Source: a virus. Taken from it: 64,000 nt of DNA. The position numbers and the translations under genes were made by a program. Positions 5,281-31,266 of this stretch are shown in pieces; positions within the stretch are counted from its first letter, which is position 1, and each line of letters starts with the position of its first letter. The stretch lies in the IMG/VR virus record IMGVR_UViG_3300021964_000012, positions 188,001 through 252,000 of that record, one strand, 5' to 3'. The notes beneath the pieces are model-generated. The model was not told where the DNA came from. It searched no databases and worked only from the letters and a program-made list of their open reading frames with translations.

Positions 5281-5463
5281 CTAAGGAATTAAATTCTTAT
5301 CAGATAATATACACACGGCACTGGTATTTTTTGGAAACCGATTACTGACATCTTTGTATTTTTTTGTTGCAATGTTACACACTTCTTCAGTTTCAAACAC
5401 ACCAATAAACTCTACGTGTGCATCTACTGTCAGTAGGTGAACTATAACTAATATCCAAACCAT
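5281..5463 (-). CDS. small exported protein
   Basis: The longest frame starts at TTG 5481, inside the U-tract of a terminator. I therefore prefer ATG 5463, which gives 60 residues beginning with a hydrophobic signal-like stretch (MVWILVIVHLLTVDA). Two cysteines follow (EEVCN, AVCIL), compatible with a small disulfide-bonded exported protein. No ribosome site precedes the ATG. A GTAAATA element ends eight bases upstream, suggesting a nearly leaderless mRNA. The family is unknown. Confidence 0.45.
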   Translation of the reverse strand: MVWILVIVHLLTVDAHVEFIGVFETEEVCNIATKKYKDVSNRFPKNTSAVCILSDKNLIP

Positions 5464-5470
5464 AACATTA

Positions 5471-5477
5471 TATTTAC
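5471..5477 (-). promoter_or_regulatory. possible late-type promoter GTAAATA
   Basis: A near-consensus NTAAATA lies between a strong terminator and the start of the 60-residue gene. It predicts transcription starting two bases before the ATG. Confidence 0.3.
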
Positions 5478-5478
5478 T

Positions 5479-5504
5479 CAAAAAAATAGCACCCGAAGGT
5501 GCTA
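5479..5504 (-). terminator. rho-independent terminator of the porin unit
   Basis: On the minus strand a TAGCACC/GGTGCTA stem with a TTCG tetraloop (5487-5504) is followed by a run of seven T. It ends the porin transcript 23 bases after the stop codon. Confidence 0.85.
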
Positions 5505-5526
5505 CTTTTATAATGTTTATTGTGTA

Positions 5527-6513
5527 TTAGAAAGAAGCGGCAATTTTAAATTGTAAAACTGAACCATCATCATCTGTTGATGCTTCTCCACCGTTCTTGT
5601 ACTCATAGTCTGTGTAGTTTACATAACCAGTTAAACCTGGTGCAATAGCATGTTTAAGTTCAACCATGTTTTGCTTTAAGTTTTCTTTTTCAGAACCTGA
5701 TACATCTAATGCATCTTCTGATTCCATTGTTGAAACTGCAACAGTTGTAGTGTCATTAATTGCATAACTTGCACCACCGCCTACTGTTTCAATGTCCTCG
5801 TCTGCACCTTCTACAGTACTCATTGCACCAATAAGTGTTACTGCACCAAATGATACTTTAGCACCAATGCTTTGTGACTCATTGTCAATTGCACCTGATA
5901 CTTCTTGCATGCCTTTTGTGTAACCAATTTTGATGTTTTCATGAGTGTAACTTGCACCATATGCAGTTGAATCAGTTGCGCCTGTTGCGCCTGAATCCAT
6001 GTAACTTACACCAGCTTGTATTCCGCCGAAACTTGGAGAAATGTATGATACTTTGTCAAGATCTGCACCATATGTTTTTTCACCTGCATTTGATTGAATT
6101 GAAGCATTGGTGTATGTGCCAGTTACTTCTTCGTCCATGATGTCTTGCTCACCAATACCAAAGTTGTCTGTAACTGCATCGTTACCGCCTAGTATTAGTT
6201 TACCAGCAGCACCTGAAATATAAATTGATGATTCGTCAATGGTTGCATTTGTGTCTGCAACTGTTGCCATTTCAACAACCATACCATAGTTTAGGCCACT
6301 ATCAGTTTTGTTTGAGAAAGTAAATTTAATTTCATTATCTGTGTTGCCCATTGAATCACCTTTTTGTGAAGCAATTTGTGAATCAACATCTTTATAATAA
6401 AATTCGGAACTACCAGAAATAGTAAATTCTGGCTTATTAACTGTGGCTTCTTGTGCCAAAGCAGTTGTACTCAGCAGTGTAGCTATCACTGCCAACGGGG
6501 CTAGTTTTTTCAT
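5527..6513 (-). CDS. outer-membrane porin
   Basis: The 328-residue product has a signal peptide (MKKLAPLAVIATLLSTTALA) and a mature start typical of Gram-negative trimeric porins. Repeated amphipathic strands follow, including SGSSEFYYKD, KFTFSNKTDSGLNYGMVVEM, GKLILGG and FGGIQAGVSYMD. The C terminus is FKIAASF, ending in the phenylalanine needed for BAM recognition. No SLH domain is present, which argues against a cyanobacterial porin. Length and strand pattern match alphaproteobacterial porins, so it was probably taken from a host. It stands alone between a CTAAATA promoter with leader hairpin and a strong terminator. Possible roles are altering nutrient uptake or masking receptors against superinfection. 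Confidence 0.85.
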   Translation of the reverse strand: MKKLAPLAVIATLLSTTALAQEATVNKPEFTISGSSEFYYKDVDSQIASQKGDSMGNTDNEIKFTFSNKTDSGLNYGMVVEMATVADTNATIDESSIYISGAAGKLILGGNDAVTDNFGIGEQDIMDEEVTGTYTNASIQSNAGEKTYGADLDKVSYISPSFGGIQAGVSYMDSGATGATDSTAYGASYTHENIKIGYTKGMQEVSGAIDNESQSIGAKVSFGAVTLIGAMSTVEGADEDIETVGGGASYAINDTTTVAVSTMESEDALDVSGSEKENLKQNMVELKHAIAPGLTGYVNYTDYEYKNGGEASTDDDGSVLQFKIAASF

Positions 6514-6548
6514 AGTCTTCTCTTATGTCCTTAAGGTTTAATTTTAAA

Positions 6549-6585
6549 TGTAGGAAATATATAGAATATATATTTCGTTCCTACA
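6549..6585 (-). promoter_or_regulatory. leader hairpin of the porin mRNA
   Basis: TGTAGGAA (6549-6556) pairs with TTCCTACA (6578-6585), with an inner ATATAT/ATATAT stem. The predicted transcription start (about 6583) falls within the outer arm, so the porin mRNA should begin with this hairpin. Confidence 0.55.
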
Positions 6586-6588
6586 TTA

Positions 6589-6595
6589 TATTTAG
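6589..6595 (-). promoter_or_regulatory. late-type promoter CTAAATA of the porin
   Basis: CTAAATA on the minus strand just upstream of the leader hairpin and 76 bases before the porin start. Confidence 0.5.
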
Positions 6596-6602
6596 TCAAC
6601 AG

Positions 6603-6881
6603 TTATCTACTCTCTAAATTTTTAATTCGTTTTTCTAGTAGATCAATCTTCTTTGTGATTTTTGGATAACGTTTACGCCACAAGTCTTCTGGCTCTTGTA
6701 ACCATGTCCATCCATACTTTTGTGCAATGTTCTCCATGAAGGTGTCAAACTTACTCACTGCCCATATTGCCATACGTGTATCTTTGAACCAAAACAAAAA
6801 TGCCGCACCTGCTAAACTTCCTACTATGCCAGTATATATCCAAAGTCTATCACTTGCCATACGTTCTATCATTTCCCACAT
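6603..6881 (-). CDS. small membrane protein with C-terminal coiled coil
   Basis: The 92-residue product has one transmembrane helix (about 14-32, WIYTGIVGSLAGAAFLFWF), an amphipathic middle and a charged helical C terminus. Size and layout are compatible with a holin-like or accessory membrane protein, but there is no specific motif. It lies nine bases after the neighbouring gene and seems to be co-transcribed with it. Confidence 0.55.
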   Translation of the reverse strand: MWEMIERMASDRLWIYTGIVGSLAGAAFLFWFKDTRMAIWAVSKFDTFMENIAQKYGWTWLQEPEDLWRKRYPKITKKIDLLEKRIKNLESR

Positions 6882-7276: not shown

Positions 7277-8071
7277 ATGAAAATACACTTTGATTTAATT
7301 TCTGATCTACATGTAGATACTTGGGATGAAGAATTCACCTGGGAAGGAAAAGCCACCAGCCTGTATGCCGTTGTAGCCGGAGATATCAGCAGAGATAGAT
7401 CCAAGTTACGTCCAGTGCTTGAGGAGATCAGCAAGCACTATCTTATGACCATGTTTGTTGATGGAAACGATGAACATAGATGGACCATGGATAATTTAGC
7501 TGAAAGTTATAAAACACTAAAACAAGAATTAACTGGTATTCCTAATTTTATTTGGCTACAAGATGACTCTTTAGTGATAGATAATATAGGATTTATTGGG
7601 ACCAACGGTTGGACAAGTTTTGATTTTGCAGAGGACAATTCCTATCTTGAAAATAAAAAATGGATGGAACAGACATATAAAATAAGCATGTTTGCTGGAC
7701 AACAAATTGAAGCAATGGCAATGCAAGATGCAGGTTTCTTGGTCAAGACTGTTGAAAGGCTGCAAAGACATCCTGATGTAAAAAAGATTGTTGTGGTATC
7801 TCATTTTGTTCCTAATGTAAATCTAATCAACCATGACACACAATTAGTTAACCAACCAAGTAGACTTAACACAACTGGTAATAGTTTTTTACTGAGATGT
7901 CTTGAAGAAGATCATGAACATAAAATTGATACATGGTGTTTTGGACACTATCACAGTGACGTTGATAGAGTTTTAAACGGTGTAAGGTATGTGAATAATT
8001 GTCGTGGTCGAGGTGGGACTAACTGGTGCAAACCAGTTTATTATCCTAAACGTATTGAAATTGGTTTTTAA
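7277..8071 (+). CDS. calcineurin-like metallophosphoesterase
   Basis: The 264-residue form (from ATG 7277) begins MKIHFDLISDLHVD, the first metal-binding motif (DxH) of calcineurin-like phosphoesterases. Further motifs follow in order: AGDISRD, DGNDEH (GNxEH-like), VVSHFVP and FGHYHSDVD (GHxH). All metal-ligand positions seem present. Family members cleave phosphomono- or diesters, and phage versions may act on nucleotides or nucleic acid. An ATG at 7250 would add nine residues, but it overlaps the divergent gene's ribosome site, so I prefer 7277. The 3' end overlaps clpS by four bases, tail to tail. No clear ribosome site is seen. Confidence 0.8.
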   Translation: MKIHFDLISDLHVDTWDEEFTWEGKATSLYAVVAGDISRDRSKLRPVLEEISKHYLMTMFVDGNDEHRWTMDNLAESYKTLKQELTGIPNFIWLQDDSLVIDNIGFIGTNGWTSFDFAEDNSYLENKKWMEQTYKISMFAGQQIEAMAMQDAGFLVKTVERLQRHPDVKKIVVVSHFVPNVNLINHDTQLVNQPSRLNTTGNSFLLRCLEEDHEHKIDTWCFGHYHSDVDRVLNGVRYVNNCRGRGGTNWCKPVYYPKRIEIGF

Positions 8072-8373
8072 AGATCAGGTTCTAGTTTAACCTGCAAAGG
8101 AAAACCTTTGCTTCTAGCACACACTGTCACTTCTACGCCTTTTTGTTCAGCCATTTCATAAGGAAGTACTGCAACCACTGCACTGCCTTTTTCATGAATG
8201 TCTACAGTAATTTTTTCAGCAGTTGTTGGTGTATAATGAAAAATGTCAACAAGTGTTTCGATAACAAATTCCATTGCAGTTTTATCGTCGTTGACATAGA
8301 TCAACTTGAATAAGTGTGGTTCAGCTAGGGTAGTGCTTATTTCGGTTTTAACACTGGAATCTGGACTTGTCAT
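8068..8373 (-). CDS. clpS: ClpS-like N-end-rule adaptor
   Basis: The 101-residue protein has the ClpS core after a flexible 20-residue N terminus: LIYVNDDKTAMEFV (compare NDDYTPMEFV), a helix, then VDIHEKGSAVVAVLPYEMAE (compare VHNEGRGVCGVYTREVAE) and a C-terminal strand HP/FPLQVKLEPD. N28, D29 and H60, which bind the substrate alpha-amino group, are kept. ClpS delivers proteins with destabilising N-terminal residues to ClpAP and usually works with ClpA, not ClpX. It lies next to hsp20 with a strong hairpin between them. An AGGAAAATAC site supports the start. Confidence 0.85.
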   Translation of the reverse strand: MTSPDSSVKTEISTTLAEPHLFKLIYVNDDKTAMEFVIETLVDIFHYTPTTAEKITVDIHEKGSAVVAVLPYEMAEQKGVEVTVCARSKGFPLQVKLEPDL

Positions 8374-8392
8374 GTATTTTCCTATTGTTGCT

Positions 8393-8416
8393 TAGTAGAG
8401 GGGAGACCCTCTACTA
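8393..8416 (-). other. 10-bp intergenic hairpin without U-tract
   Basis: TAGTAGAGGG (8393-8402) and CCCTCTACTA (8407-8416) form a perfect stem with a four-base loop between hsp20 and clpS. No T-run follows on either strand. It may be an mRNA-stabilising or processing element that sets unequal expression of the two genes. Confidence 0.6.
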
Positions 8417-8430
8417 ATACTTATCTTTGG

Positions 8431-8874
8431 TTATTTGATTTCAATAGTTTTTGGCTTGAGGGCATCTGGAATGATTTTTTCTAAATGGATACTTAATACT
8501 CCATTTTTCATTTCTGCACTTTTTACTTCCACATACTCTGCAAGATTAAAAGTTCTTGTAAAGTTACGTCCTGAAAGTCCTCTGTGTAGATATTCAATTC
8601 CGTTTGCTTCATCTTCACCGTCAATCTTCTTAGGTTGGTTACCTGTGATTGTCAGTGTGCCATTTTCCATTTCTATCGTCATGTCTGCTTTTTCAAAACC
8701 AGCGGCCGCAATTTCTATGGTATAATTGTAATCATTCTCTCTGATGATATTATATGGCGGATAGTTCTGTGAACTTGTCATTTCAAAATTTGATGTGATT
8801 CTATCAAATAAAGAATCAAATCCAACAGCGTTACGATAAAAAGGGGTTAAGTCGAGTGAGGTTATTCTTGTCAT
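8431..8874 (-). CDS. Hsp20 / alpha-crystallin small heat-shock protein
   Basis: The 147-residue product has the IbpA-type layout. A short N-terminal arm contains FDSLFDRI, an alpha-crystallin domain covers about residues 37-128 (YTIEIAAAGFEKADMTIEME; LHRGLSGRNFTRTFNL; GVLSIHLEK), and a C-terminal tail follows. Small heat-shock proteins hold unfolding proteins for refolding. They are common in marine T4-like phages and may help virion protein folding. A TATAAATA promoter and a 5' hairpin lie upstream, and AGGAG precedes the start. It is adjacent to clpS. Confidence 0.93.
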   Translation of the reverse strand: MTRITSLDLTPFYRNAVGFDSLFDRITSNFEMTSSQNYPPYNIIRENDYNYTIEIAAAGFEKADMTIEMENGTLTITGNQPKKIDGEDEANGIEYLHRGLSGRNFTRTFNLAEYVEVKSAEMKNGVLSIHLEKIIPDALKPKTIEIK

Positions 8875-8905
8875 TTTTATTTCTCCTATTAAAGCAAGAT
8901 TAAAA

Positions 8906-8930
8906 TGTAAGTCCTATTAAGCAACTTACA
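8906..8930 (-). promoter_or_regulatory. leader hairpin of hsp20
   Basis: TGTAAGT (8906-8912) pairs with ACTTACA (8924-8930). The predicted late transcription start is about 8929, so the hairpin would sit at the 5' end of the mRNA. Confidence 0.5.
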
Positions 8931-8934
8931 ATAT

Positions 8935-8942
8935 TATTTATA
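8935..8942 (-). promoter_or_regulatory. late promoter TATAAATA of hsp20
   Basis: A perfect T4 late element on the minus strand, 61 bases upstream of the hsp20 start. Confidence 0.7.
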
Positions 8943-8975
8943 CACGGAATAAGGTATGCTGTCAATAAAAAAGGT

Positions 8976-9016
8976 AAAAAAAAGTTGCTAGGATAAAAAC
9001 AAAAATACCTAGCAAC
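8976..9016 (-). terminator. rho-independent terminator after the lipoprotein gene
   Basis: On the minus strand GTTGCTAGG (9008-9016) pairs with CCTAGCAAC (8984-8992) around a T-rich 15-base loop, followed by about eight T. It lies just past the lipoprotein stop. Confidence 0.8.
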
Positions 9017-9057
9017 TTTATAGTTAGAGGGATAGGAGTCCCTTTGTCAAATTTTGA

Positions 9058-11418
9058 TTAGAATGTCCAAGTATAATTGATACTTGCATTCTTATCACCG
9101 CTTTGACTTACGGCACCACCTACCTTAATCTTAGTATTAGTATCTAAGTTAAAGTTGTAGTTTGCTTTCAAGTAACCATTTATGTTTGTTGGTAACTTGA
9201 ATTTGTGTTCAGTGTAGTTAAGGTTGCCTGTTGAATCAACACTAGTAGGCACATTAGCAGTAACATCACCGTTTAGTAACACAGGATGTACACCAGCACC
9301 TAAGTCTAAGTTGCCTTGCTTGTATCCAAGCTCCCCCCATATACCAAATTGATCACTAACTTTTGTTATTAAACCTTTTTGGAAGTTTGTTTTAACATGC
9401 ATGGCACTTGCTCTTGCAGTAAAGCTACCTTTCTTGTATGTAACAACATTGTCAACAATGTTAGTGTTATCAACTTCACCCCATATGCCTGAGAAACCAA
9501 TCCATGGATTGCTATTCAACTTTGACAGATGCACACTGTAAGTTGTTCCATTGCCAGTTACTGCATTAGCATTGGTCCACATGTTTTGTCCTAGTGTGAA
9601 CTGTTGTGTTTTTGTATCGGCGCCAGCAATAACACCATTTTCAGTTGTAGTATTAAAACTAGAGATACTGTTGAACATTGTTGCACCATCAGAATCAATA
9701 TTTGTTTGTGCAAGGTTAACTGCATAGTTTCTTCCTATGCCGTCAAGTGCTTGACCAGTAACATCACCAATGTCAAATCCGTATACACTACCATTAAGTT
9801 TTAAACCGTTCATGGTAAGTGTGCCAATTGGTTGGAATGCTTTGTTGATATCAATTATTGTACCACCAGCAAATGATTGACCTGTATCAGTAAGTGCTTG
9901 AGCAGCTTGTGCATCACTTAGGTAACTCCAAGAATTTTGTATCATATTGATCGCAGTTCCTGCGGCTATTGTAGTTCCATCTAGCCTACTCATAAAAAAC
10001 GTAAGTTTATTATCATTACTGTCTCCGCCACCGGCACTGTTTGCCCATGTTACAAGATACTTGTAACCATCATCTGCTTGAAAAATGTTTACAGTACTAC
10101 CATTTATATCAGTCAAACCATTGGAAGTAGCAATTGATCTAACATCTGTCATAAAGTTAGTGAGTATGTTTTGATAAGCCGCAACGTATTTGTTATCAGA
10201 TGTTTTTAACAAAAACTGGTGACTGTTGTGTGGATTGTTCATAGTACTTGAATCACCACCACTGACCAATATGTCTGTTTTACCATCACCGTTAATATCA
10301 AAGAACCTTGGTTTATATGTACTTGAAGTATTGTTTTGATAACCAATTAGTGTAGAGCTTGTTGTATCAGTAAACACTCCACTACCGTTGTTTTGCATAA
10401 ACTGTATTTCGCTTAATTTGTCATCACCATTGTTTACTTTTTTGCTGAATACAATAACGTCTGCATATCCATCTTCATTAAAGTCGTGGTTGGCAATTTC
10501 AACACTATGATCTATACCGCTGGTACTAAATGCTGGAAGGTCTCTTTCATGTGTAAATTTAAGTACACCGCCTGTCCAGTCAACACTGTACATTTTAGTT
10601 GTGTTACTATCACTGCAAGTGCCGCTTACTACTGCACACTGAGCATCAGTAAGTATTACCTCATTGTTGTTACCGTTGTTCATAAAATTGCCTATTGCAA
10701 CTGCTGAACCACCGTATCTGAGATCACCTGTATTGCCTAATGCATCAACGTGTGTGGTAAATCCATTCACTTGGTTGTTGAGTGCAATAGTTGTATTTTT
10801 ATTTTTTAGATCCGGCATGATAATATCAATATAACCATCATTGTTCAAGTCACCAACATCACTACCATGTGACCAAACGTCTAAGGTTGGAATACTAACT
10901 TTGGTAAAGTTTGATCCATTATTAGTAAAGAAGGTAGCAGGACCAAAGTGTCTCATATCAGTACTGTGCGAAACAAACATATCTTTTCTGCCAGTTTTAA
11001 AGAAGTCAGCAAAATGAACATTAGGCTCTGTGCCCATTATTTCATTGTCGGTACCTGAAAACCACTGTGCAGTCTTATCAACCAATGAACCATTTTCAAA
11101 AGACAGCATGCTTAGTTTAGTGTTGCTCCATGTACCAGCTGTAGCAGGTTGTGTCTTCCTACCAGCAACTATAAAATCATCTGCATAACCATCACCATCA
11201 ATATCTTCTACAAATGTGTCACCAACGAACCATGCATTATCGTTACCACCTGCCATTGGATCAACTGTTACTTGTTGAACTGGCGGGGTATAATATAAGA
11301 CTGGACTTGGAGGATTTGGTGTGTAACCACCTCCGCCACCACCACCACCTCCGCCACAAGCGGAAAGAGCAGTTGCACCTAGTAGTGCGGCCACTATTCG
11401 AGTGTTTTGTTTTATCAT
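9058..11418 (-). CDS. large surface lipoprotein with FG-GAP/VCBS repeats and C-terminal barrel-like domain
   Basis: The 786-residue protein has a lipoprotein signal with lipobox LSAC (lipidated Cys21) and then ten glycines and a Pro-rich linker. From about residue 60 to 420 there are repeated D-x-[ND]-x-DG-x-x-D calcium-binding motifs (DIDGDGYADD, DLNNDGYIDI, DFNEDGYADV, DINGDGKTDI), the hallmark of FG-GAP/VCBS beta-propellers. The last 170 residues contain alternating strands with IWGELGYK and end in INYTWTF, like C-terminal barrels of alphaproteobacterial autotransporters. It has its own promoter and terminator. An outer-membrane, surface-exposed role is likely. A virion adhesin is the alternative, but the lipobox argues against it. 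Confidence 0.75.
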   Translation of the reverse strand: MIKQNTRIVAALLGATALSACGGGGGGGGGGYTPNPPSPVLYYTPPVQQVTVDPMAGGNDNAWFVGDTFVEDIDGDGYADDFIVAGRKTQPATAGTWSNTKLSMLSFENGSLVDKTAQWFSGTDNEIMGTEPNVHFADFFKTGRKDMFVSHSTDMRHFGPATFFTNNGSNFTKVSIPTLDVWSHGSDVGDLNNDGYIDIIMPDLKNKNTTIALNNQVNGFTTHVDALGNTGDLRYGGSAVAIGNFMNNGNNNEVILTDAQCAVVSGTCSDSNTTKMYSVDWTGGVLKFTHERDLPAFSTSGIDHSVEIANHDFNEDGYADVIVFSKKVNNGDDKLSEIQFMQNNGSGVFTDTTSSTLIGYQNNTSSTYKPRFFDINGDGKTDILVSGGDSSTMNNPHNSHQFLLKTSDNKYVAAYQNILTNFMTDVRSIATSNGLTDINGSTVNIFQADDGYKYLVTWANSAGGGDSNDNKLTFFMSRLDGTTIAAGTAINMIQNSWSYLSDAQAAQALTDTGQSFAGGTIIDINKAFQPIGTLTMNGLKLNGSVYGFDIGDVTGQALDGIGRNYAVNLAQTNIDSDGATMFNSISSFNTTTENGVIAGADTKTQQFTLGQNMWTNANAVTGNGTTYSVHLSKLNSNPWIGFSGIWGEVDNTNIVDNVVTYKKGSFTARASAMHVKTNFQKGLITKVSDQFGIWGELGYKQGNLDLGAGVHPVLLNGDVTANVPTSVDSTGNLNYTEHKFKLPTNINGYLKANYNFNLDTNTKIKVGGAVSQSGDKNASINYTWTF

Positions 11419-11450
11419 TGTAAAGTCTCCTATTCTCTAACAATATAAAC

Positions 11451-11478
11451 ACTATAGCATGCTATTTAGAACTGTCAA
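11451..11478 (-). promoter_or_regulatory. sigma-70-like promoter (plus CTAAATA) of the lipoprotein gene
   Basis: TTGACA (11473-11478) and TATAGT (11451-11456) are 16 bases apart on the minus strand. A CTAAATA at 11463-11469 lies inside the same spacer, so both early and late transcription are possible. Confidence 0.65.
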
Positions 11479-11506
11479 CCTTTTTTATTATTGCATGGCA
11501 GGCATG

Positions 11507-11513
11507 CTAAATA
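11507..11513 (+). promoter_or_regulatory. late-type promoter CTAAATA of the riboswitch gene
   Basis: CTAAATA on the plus strand. Counting six bases on gives 11519, one base before the riboswitch aptamer, which supports this motif as a true promoter. Confidence 0.6.
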
Positions 11514-11518
11514 CATAT

Positions 11519-11588
11519 ACGTTCACCCAAGAGGGCGGAAGTAGGCAATCGCTGAAGGAACGCACTTAACCTTAAAAGGGAGAGTGTA
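11519..11588 (+). promoter_or_regulatory. glutamine riboswitch (Downstream-peptide / glnA RNA type)
   Basis: The leader matches the conserved core of the glutamine-binding glnA/Downstream-peptide RNAs. P1 is CGTTC (11520-11524) paired with GAACG (11558-11562). A CCC/GGG hairpin follows P1, then the invariant CGGAAGTAGG (11536-11545) and GAAGGAACGC (11554-11563). The ribosome site GGGAGAG and the start of a short gene lie about 20 bases downstream, as in the Downstream-peptide class. These riboswitches are known from cyanobacteria, their phages and marine metagenomes. Glutamine should change access to the ribosome site. The match was made from memory. Confidence 0.85.
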
Positions 11589-11834
11589 ATGACAAACATA
11601 ATCGAAACTAAATTTGGTACCTTGGTTAATACAAAAAAGGTAGCCGCAGGAAGTGCATCTAGTATAAAAAAATCTGGTGCGTTTTATAGTTTTTCAATAA
11701 AAATAGCAAATGATGATATAAGAGAATACTCATTTACGGATCTTGCAAGAGCTCAGTATATGAGAACAATTATGATTGGTCATTTAGAAGAAAAAATTAA
11801 AAACGAAACTAAGAGTATTTCTAAAACTGCCTAG
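11589..11834 (+). CDS. small protein controlled by a glutamine riboswitch
   Basis: This 81-residue protein (start ATG after GGGAGAGTGTA) has a Ser/Lys-rich N-terminal half with beta character and a helical, charged C terminus. It has no signal peptide and no family I recognise. The glutamine riboswitch in its leader implies a link to nitrogen status. Host genes with this leader often encode small inhibitors of glutamine synthetase, but no such similarity is visible here. It is one of few plus-strand genes, and its last four bases overlap clpX tail to tail. Confidence 0.75.
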   Translation: MTNIIETKFGTLVNTKKVAAGSASSIKKSGAFYSFSIKIANDDIREYSFTDLARAQYMRTIMIGHLEEKIKNETKSISKTA

Positions 11835-13045
11835 GCTGCTAATTTTAGTGGTTTCTTAACGAGGCCTGGAGTTATAACTACTTCGGTAATATCCTGTTTA
11901 GCATATTCTTTTAGGCTAAACATATGCGGCATCAATATACGTTCAAGCTCGGCTTGCAAACTTCTTGCTCCAGTTTTACGTGTTGCCGCATTTTTTGCGA
12001 TTTCAAGCAGTGCTTCATCGCTAAATTTTAATTTTACACCATCACATTCAAACAGATAGGTATATTGATCAATTAAACTGTTTTTAATTCCAGTAAGCAC
12101 ATATACCAACTGTTTTTCTGAAAGTTCTTTCAAACCTACCCATGTTGGAAAACGTCCTACAAATTCGGGAATCATACCAAACTTTACCAAATCATCTGGC
12201 TCCATATTATCAAGTTCACCTTCTGCATTTGTTTTAACATCAACACCAAAACCTATTCCAGAACCTTCAGCACGTCTTTTGATAACATCATTAATACCAA
12301 CAAAGGCGCCACCAGCAATAAAAAGTATATTTGTTGTATCAATATCTATCATTTCAGCCTGTGGATTTTTCCGACTAGCATTTTGTGCAGGAACTCTACA
12401 AACAGTTCCTTCTACCACTTTCAACAATGCTTGTTGAACGCCTTCTCCACTTACATCACGTGTAATGCTTGTGTTTTCACTTTTGCGAGCGATTTTATCA
12501 ATCTCGTCTAAAAATATTATACCTCTTTGGCATTTTTCAACATTACCACCAGCATTGCTTAATAATTTTCCAATCAGTGACTCAACATCATCACCTACAT
12601 AACCAGCTTCAGTAATACTTGTTGCATCAGTGACTGCAAACGGCACATCTAGATACCTTGCTACTGACTTTGCTAATAGTGTTTTACCACAACCAGTTGG
12701 ACCAAGGAGCAGAACGTTTGCTTTATCTAGTTCTAGATCTTTTGATTTGTTTTGTATTCTTTTGTAATGGTTTGCCACTGCAACACTTAGAACTGTTTTA
12801 GCGGATTCTTGTCCTATTACATATTTGTCTAAAAATGCTTTTAATTCGGTTGGATCAATGTCTTTGAATTTTACTGAATCAACTGTTTCTTTTGTAAGAG
12901 ATTTTAGTAAGTCGCCACATAGGTCTACACATTCGTTACAAATAGCAACTCTATCACCTACAATAAGTTTATTAACTTTATCTTTTTCTTTATTGCAAAA
13001 ATCACATCGATTGTATTGTTGTTTTTGTTCTTCGTCCATGGTCAT
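11831..13045 (-). CDS. clpX: ClpX unfoldase, full length
   Basis: The 404-residue product has all ClpX domains: an N-terminal zinc-binding domain (C14, C17, C36, C39), Walker A GPTGCGKT (115-122), pore loop GYVGDD (148-153), Walker B IIFLDE (176-181) and the SITRDVSGEGVQQALLKVVEGT region. The ClpP-docking IGF loop is present (264-266), and a GAR sensor-2 arginine lies near residue 348. ClpX unfolds tagged proteins and feeds them to ClpP. No clpP is in the window, so the host ClpP would be the partner. The RKH loop reads RKN at 225-227. The ATG overlaps the previous gene's TAA. Confidence 0.95.
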   Translation of the reverse strand: MTMDEEQKQQYNRCDFCNKEKDKVNKLIVGDRVAICNECVDLCGDLLKSLTKETVDSVKFKDIDPTELKAFLDKYVIGQESAKTVLSVAVANHYKRIQNKSKDLELDKANVLLLGPTGCGKTLLAKSVARYLDVPFAVTDATSITEAGYVGDDVESLIGKLLSNAGGNVEKCQRGIIFLDEIDKIARKSENTSITRDVSGEGVQQALLKVVEGTVCRVPAQNASRKNPQAEMIDIDTTNILFIAGGAFVGINDVIKRRAEGSGIGFGVDVKTNAEGELDNMEPDDLVKFGMIPEFVGRFPTWVGLKELSEKQLVYVLTGIKNSLIDQYTYLFECDGVKLKFSDEALLEIAKNAATRKTGARSLQAELERILMPHMFSLKEYAKQDITEVVITPGLVKKPLKLAA

Positions 13046-30794: not shown

Positions 30795-30827
30795 CAAAAA
30801 AACCCTAGTTAATAAAAACTAGGGTTT
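30795..30827 (-). terminator. rho-independent terminator
   Basis: On the minus strand AAACCCTAGT pairs with ACTAGGGTTT (30800-30809 with 30818-30827) and is followed by seven to eight T. It ends the gene at 30853-31266. Confidence 0.85.
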
Positions 30828-30852
30828 AGTATTTGGTTATAGCAAATTAAAA

Positions 30853-31266
30853 TTATGCTAACTTGAAACCACCTGTTGTTACAGTTGAACTTGAACAGTC
30901 TACGCTGTTTGAACCAGCGGCTGTTAATGTTCTAATTGATGTTTGTAATGTTGATGCTGTGTATGCACCTGTTGGGTAGATACCAACTGAAATCTGTCCA
31001 CTTGTGTCATCTTCAACTTGGTATACAGCCACTGTAGATGTCTGCTGGATGTTTTCTAAAATTGCTTCTACTGCTAATCCTGTTCCAACTTCTGCTTGTA
31101 AGTCTACGGCTGAACCATCATCAATTAAAAGTTTGAAGAAGTCTAGTTTTGGACCTTGTAGGTTAACTGGAGCTGATTCAGCTAAAGCACCTGAAAGTGC
31201 ACCGTTGTTTGTGTCAATATGGAATACCTGTTGTGCATTACCATGGGTTCTTGTAAATTCTGCCAT
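30853..31266 (-). CDS. small abundant-type virion protein
   Basis: The 137-residue product is rich in Thr, Ser, Ala and Gly, beta-predicted, with no signal peptide (MAEFTRTHGNAQQVFHIDTN). It has a strong terminator and a good ribosome site (AGGAG), the mark of a highly expressed structural gene. It may be a capsid decoration or tail protein. The family is not recognised. Confidence 0.6.
   Translation of the reverse strand: MAEFTRTHGNAQQVFHIDTNNGALSGALAESAPVNLQGPKLDFFKLLIDDGSAVDLQAEVGTGLAVEAILENIQQTSTVAVYQVEDDTSGQISVGIYPTGAYTASTLQTSIRTLTAAGSNSVDCSSSTVTTGGFKLA

Follow-up and report, generated by a model that had tools for sequence, protein, structure and literature searches.

Phages are usually regarded as leaving the outer membrane of the host alone until lysis. 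The Lc porin (NmpC) is a general porin encoded by the temperate lambdoid coliphage PA-2, and it has been described as reducing the adsorption of progeny to debris and superinfection, as has Llp of phage T5 by another route. On marine virus contigs from oxygen minimum zones, a viral OmpL, inferred to come from Bacteroidetes, was reported beside glnK-amtB (PMC8115048), so that porins on marine virus contigs are already known from one published precedent. In a recent jumbo phage review, porin appears solely as a receptor (PMC13282480). A search for "phage-encoded porin" in the open-access full-text literature, with subscription papers outside its scope, gave no match.

In the current study, we analyzed a window of 64,000 nucleotides, namely bases 188001-252000 of a virus record of 328,292 bases. 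The T4-type genes in this record include gp23 (at 302 kb), portal, protease, terminase (at 260 kb), gp32, and UvsX. PHROG matches to gp23, gp20, gp21, gp17, gp32, and UvsX all lie in one record of 328 kb (criterion, over 200 kb), and the virus is a T4-like jumbo phage. Its nearest isolates by gp23, at approximately 65% identity, are Vibrio phage 2.275.O, Pseudomonas phage PA5oct, and Sinorhizobium phage Phosso. A cyanophage host was rejected, as a psbA family match is absent from the record.

The porin gene (5527..6513, minus strand) is intact and encodes 328 aa with a C-terminal Phe. A signal peptide of 20 aa (6454..6513, minus strand) ends in an AxA-type cleavage site, ALA|QE, identified in the translation by eye; the N-terminus reads MKKLAPLAVIATLLSTTALA|QE, and the pattern MKK..LLST[TS]ALA was found in every phage porin copy that has its N-terminal end. 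The Pfam family Porin_4 (PF13609) matched residues 8-307 over profile positions 3-309 of 310 (E=1.9e-32; 113.8 bits against a curated cut-off of 27), and profile-profile comparison aligned the whole chain with alphaproteobacterial porins (probability 99.9%, E 1.6e-33). The Rhodobacter capsulatus porin 2POR was reached via a bridging profile; a PDB profile search with the phage porins only gave no direct match, and neither did a PHROG search with the porin. Judged from these sequence matches, the product is a Gram-negative general porin, in agreement with the first-pass annotation, which had described a full porin with a signal peptide and a C-terminal Phe.

The likeness to the alphaproteobacterial general porins (PF13609, 2POR) extends over the full-length family, a mature length of approximately 300 aa, the signal peptide, the C-terminal Phe, and the L3 region, while the phage copies differ in forming a clade of their own, in their identity of approximately 40% to the nearest cellular porins, and in loops that evolve more slowly than the strands. 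With PA-2 Lc, as that protein is generally described, the locus shares a phage-encoded general porin; PA-2, however, is temperate and its enterobacterial porin acts in lysogens, whereas the present phage is a T4-like jumbo phage with an alphaproteobacterial porin behind a late promoter. The viral OmpL is likewise a porin gene on marine virus contigs, but it lies directly 3' of glnK-amtB (PMC8115048), whereas the Porin_4 gene in the window stands alone as a late unit and belongs to jumbo T4-like phages.

Several searches bear on the origin of the gene. Scanning 84,980 species for exact motifs turned up no cellular relative, and when 337 alphaproteobacterial genomes were searched with a profile, the hits were weak and fell mostly in the N-terminal half. 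In the order containing the genome G309, 63 of 136 genomes matched the porin, the best match being full length (E=4.8e-70), and the closest cellular porins in this order are approximately 40% identical and equal in protein length. As expected of a gene of host origin, its nearest relatives outside the phages belong to one cellular lineage; with such homologues in cells, the porin is also a candidate auxiliary metabolic gene for nutrient uptake. The equal length disposed of the idea that the phage porin has shortened loops compared with its donors. The genomes of this order measure 1.0-2.8 Mb, with a G+C content of approximately 30% near the matching genes and 47% in G309; from the small genomes and the G+C content, the order is probably SAR116 (Puniceispirillales). 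In the tree, the phage porins form one clade (99/98) that is sister to the porins of this order, in line with the naming of SAR116 among the candidate donors in the first-pass annotation. A single, old capture is the simplest reading, and the capture was probably old because no close cellular copy was found. A recent capture from the host found no support, as the 84,980 species of the motif scan yielded no close cellular copy and the phage clade stands apart. Among possible host markers, the window's FG-GAP protein showed no signal for the order of G309, and ClpX was discarded, its signal being weak (best 55%); the porin is the sole basis of the host assignment. The porin gene may also help to link uncultured jumbo phages to their hosts.

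The gene recurs outside the window. Related porins, 72-96% identical, were found on 20 IMG/VR contigs (19 from scans, with L264 added later), and in related jumbo T4-like phages the porin occupies three genomic positions. At site A, the position in the window, L015 (96%, partial gene) and L006 (74%) match the gene order on the flanks they cover: the upstream neighbor g13 (6603..6881, minus strand; 92 aa, no known function) is syntenic in both, and the downstream neighbor g11 (5281..5481, minus strand; 66 aa, no known function) in L006. At site B, the porin lies directly 3' of the capsid gene gp23 in L002, L005, and L001 (88%), and L004 has porin and gp23 on one contig. A sulfotransferase-like gene adjoins the porin at this site (L002:11039-11635, minus strand). 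At site C (72-75%; L014, L016, L008, L009, L020, and L264), the porin lies 3' of the terminase and a virion structural protein and 5' of gp32 and uvsX, the upstream genes being scored as far as each contig extends. The remaining porin contigs carry the same sequence types as those at the three sites, and sites B and C are empty in the 328-kb genome of the window.

The possibility that a host contig had been joined to the phage by assembly, which was named in advance as the result that would overturn the first annotation, is ruled out by the synteny in L015 and L006 and by the gp23- or gp32-adjacent copies. The view that a porin is unusual in a T4-like marine phage stands in part: it is a full porin in a jumbo T4-like phage, but not a unique one, given 20 contigs and three sites. 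In 26 of the closest relatives by gp23, whose records reach 374 kb, the porin was not found, which argues that the gene is restricted, though many of these records are fragments. A tblastn search of 50,697 INPHARED records with the window porin found no other phage porin, and four queries informed by cellular porins found no porin in IMG/VR outside the porin family of the window.

It could be supposed that the porin is a passenger, either a host gene that was captured but has no selected function or the result of an assembly that joined a host contig to the phage. Host-like captured genes are common in phages, and the contig L007 begins inside a hybrid leader: at L007:1-112, a porin leader and signal peptide like those of site A are fused to the body of a site C porin at the contig start. 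This junction may be a recombinant or an assembly chimera, and no conclusion depends on L007. Nevertheless, we consider the passenger explanation highly improbable, since the gene has been kept at three positions on 20 contigs with a dedicated promoter and terminator, no host-type porin was found in the viral contigs scanned, and the pairwise dN/dS of the phage porins is 0.05-0.19. These ratios demonstrate strong purifying selection on the porin, which acts across no fewer than three related lineages of virus.

Synonymous divergence provided evidence on exchange among these phages. Between the window phage and L002, dS was 0.56 for the porin, 0.79 for gp23, and 1.6 to saturated for gp20, gp21, and gp22; codon bias, and not just recent exchange, may account for the low porin value. 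Between L008 and L020, dS was 0.05 for gp32 and uvsX and 0.44 for the porins, which are 87.5% identical, a contrast that indicates replacement of the porin allele at the locus. The porin of L006, at site A, is 89% identical to that of L016 at site C and 76% identical to that of the window at site A, which again points to exchange.

Concerning expression, a late-type promoter core (CTAAATATA, CTAAATA(TA), resembling the T4 late TAAATA; 6587..6595, minus strand) precedes the porin gene, and a hairpin of 41 nt (TGTAGGAA..TTCCTACA; 6547..6587, minus strand) can be folded at the presumed 5' end of the mRNA. The promoter assignment is based on the sequence and on motif enrichment: in the intergenic stretches upstream of genes throughout this genome, [ACT]TAAATA occurs 13 times on the sense strand versus 1.5 expected (approximately 9-fold enrichment), with an antisense count of 5. 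The leader hairpin (-13.0 kcal/mol, z -5.3) has the strongest z among the late promoters scanned, and hairpins right 3' of [ACT]TAAATA have a mean z of -1.85 (n=9) versus -0.78 for controls. Hairpins just 3' of TAAATA-type late promoters were observed at several genes, in intergenic regions of the window and in L164 and L165, and such hairpins are perhaps a general device of this phage that protects the 5' end of its mRNAs.

At the other end of the unit, an intrinsic terminator (TAGCACC-TTCG-GGTGCTA plus 7 T; about 5480..5504, minus strand) reads TAGCACC-TTCG-GGTGCTATTTTTTT, with a perfect stem and a U-tract; there are only two terminators of this kind in the 64-kb window. The other belongs to a gene of 137 aa and no known function (30826-31266, minus strand), which has the second highest gp23-like codon usage in the window and whose product is perhaps an abundant structural protein. 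The gp23 terminator in the genome of the window (L164:6116) has the stem ATAGCACC..GGTGCTAT, the same as that of the porin terminator, and a near-identical terminator lies 3' of the porin in L006, L002, and L001. Sites A and B share a nearly identical terminator stem; that of the L008 group resembles it, and L016 has a different one. Wherever flanks are readable, at all three sites, the porin has its own TAAATA-type promoter, leader, and terminator. A post-promoter hairpin is possible at the porin in the window, L015, L006, L007, L002, and L004, with differing sequences; it lies further down in L008, L009, and L020 and is less clear in L016 and L001. From this recurrence we infer that promoter, porin, and terminator travelled as one cassette. 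Thus, the earlier description of an isolated late expression unit, with a late-type promoter, a leader hairpin, and a strong terminator, was borne out in each of its elements. In codon similarity to gp23, the porin ranks fourth of 85 genes (0.693; mean 0.578, sd 0.053), which would fit both a high level of expression and a long stay in phages.

The pattern of divergence along the protein gives a clue to function. L3 of general porins sets the size and selectivity of the pore, and in the region aligned with this constriction loop in the cellular porins (GNDAVTDNFGIGEQDIMDEEVTGTYTNASIQSNAGEKTYGADLD; 6055..6186, minus strand, limits approximate), 66% of positions are invariant among the phage porins. 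The AlphaFold model of the porin had a pLDDT of 36 with a shallow alignment, and the strand/loop map, drawn from the weak C-terminal half of this model and the alignment, is approximate. On this map, the ratio of outer-loop to strand divergence was 0.70 in the phage porins versus 1.2-1.5 in the cellular porins, and L3 showed the same reversal, being slower than the strands in phages and faster in cells. The loop/strand difference gave permutation p=0.03 for phage and 0.0005 for cellular porins, values that ignore relatedness and use the approximate topology. L6 and L8 are invariant in 10 distinct phage porin sequences, L7 and L8 are distinct from those of the cellular homologues set beside them, and net charge did not differ between phage and cellular porins. 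The loops, which had been expected to vary, are therefore the more conserved part of the phage protein.

Based on this evidence, we tentatively favor a role in permeability, to which we give slightly less than an even chance. A general porin taken long ago from a small-genome marine alphaproteobacterial order (probably SAR116), and since adapted to the phage, would be expressed from a late promoter of its own, with a leader that forms a hairpin, and would probably come near the level of the capsid protein. Sec would export the protein, and the host BAM complex would insert it as a trimeric 16-strand barrel; while the lytic phage would shut down host gene expression, its porin would maintain or raise the permeability of the outer membrane to small solutes during virion production. 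Host identity, expression level, membrane insertion, trimer, host shutdown, and permeability function are all things that we infer. The permeability reading would explain the constraint on the pore and the dose: relative to the strands, L3 is the more conserved in phages and the less conserved in cells, codon usage is capsid-like, and the terminator is one of the two perfect ones in the window. Against it, late expression would leave little time for a metabolic benefit if the infection is short, a nutrient-specific neighbor lies at none of the three sites, and the conservation of L6-L8 exceeds the need of a pure diffusion pore.

That same conservation of the outer face could instead reflect receptor replacement, in which a late phage porin, recognized neither by the phage itself nor by its rivals, would displace the host porins that serve as receptors and so lower both superinfection and the adsorption of progeny to lysed debris. 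We regard this as possible but doubtful. It would account for an outer face that stays constant and for expression late in infection, as the phage outer loops are near-constant while the cellular loops diverge fast (0.70 versus 1.2-1.5), L7 and L8 are unlike the cellular homologues shown, and the late, strong expression signals fit protection of progeny at lysis. Superinfection exclusion genes, however, are usually early; host porins as receptors of these phages lack support, loop conservation is expected under other constraints too, and the difference reaches p=0.03 only, in 10 related sequences. A bolder version, in which a mobile cassette in a lytic jumbo lineage repaves the outer membrane at a capsid-like dose with a constant outer face, replacing the host-porin receptors so that progeny escape debris and rival phages, appears to us unlikely, more so than receptor replacement as such. 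Purpose aside, the phage probably rebuilds the outer surface of its host cell, to judge from these features. That several jumbo lineages keep a conserved porin with strong expression signals suggests that surface permeability or receptors are actively remodelled late in infection in this marine group, and the slow-evolving loops, opposite to those of cellular porins, give a hint, open to testing, as to whether permeability or receptors are involved.

A further possibility is that a high dose of porin perturbs or stabilizes the outer membrane and thereby times or eases lysis. The late-type promoter would suit such a role, as would the Hsp20, ClpS-like, ClpX, and FG-GAP genes in the porin region of the window. 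We consider it improbable, given that the pore region is conserved, that selection is strong along the whole chain, and that no recognized lysis gene lies beside the porin at the three sites, where many neighbors have no known function.

Other genes of this region were also recorded. A ClpX of 404 aa, which scores above the curated cut-off, is clustered at 8068-13045 with a ClpS-like adaptor and an IbpA-like Hsp20; the three are kept in L006 and L015, as is an FG-GAP repeat protein of 786 aa (9058-11418, minus strand), which is lipoprotein-like with an aromatic C-terminus and had no match in INPHARED. A glutamine riboswitch (RF01739, 53.7 bits; 11518-11566, plus strand) lies directly 3' of a CTAAATA late-type promoter and precedes a gene of 81 aa and no known function (11589-11834, plus strand).
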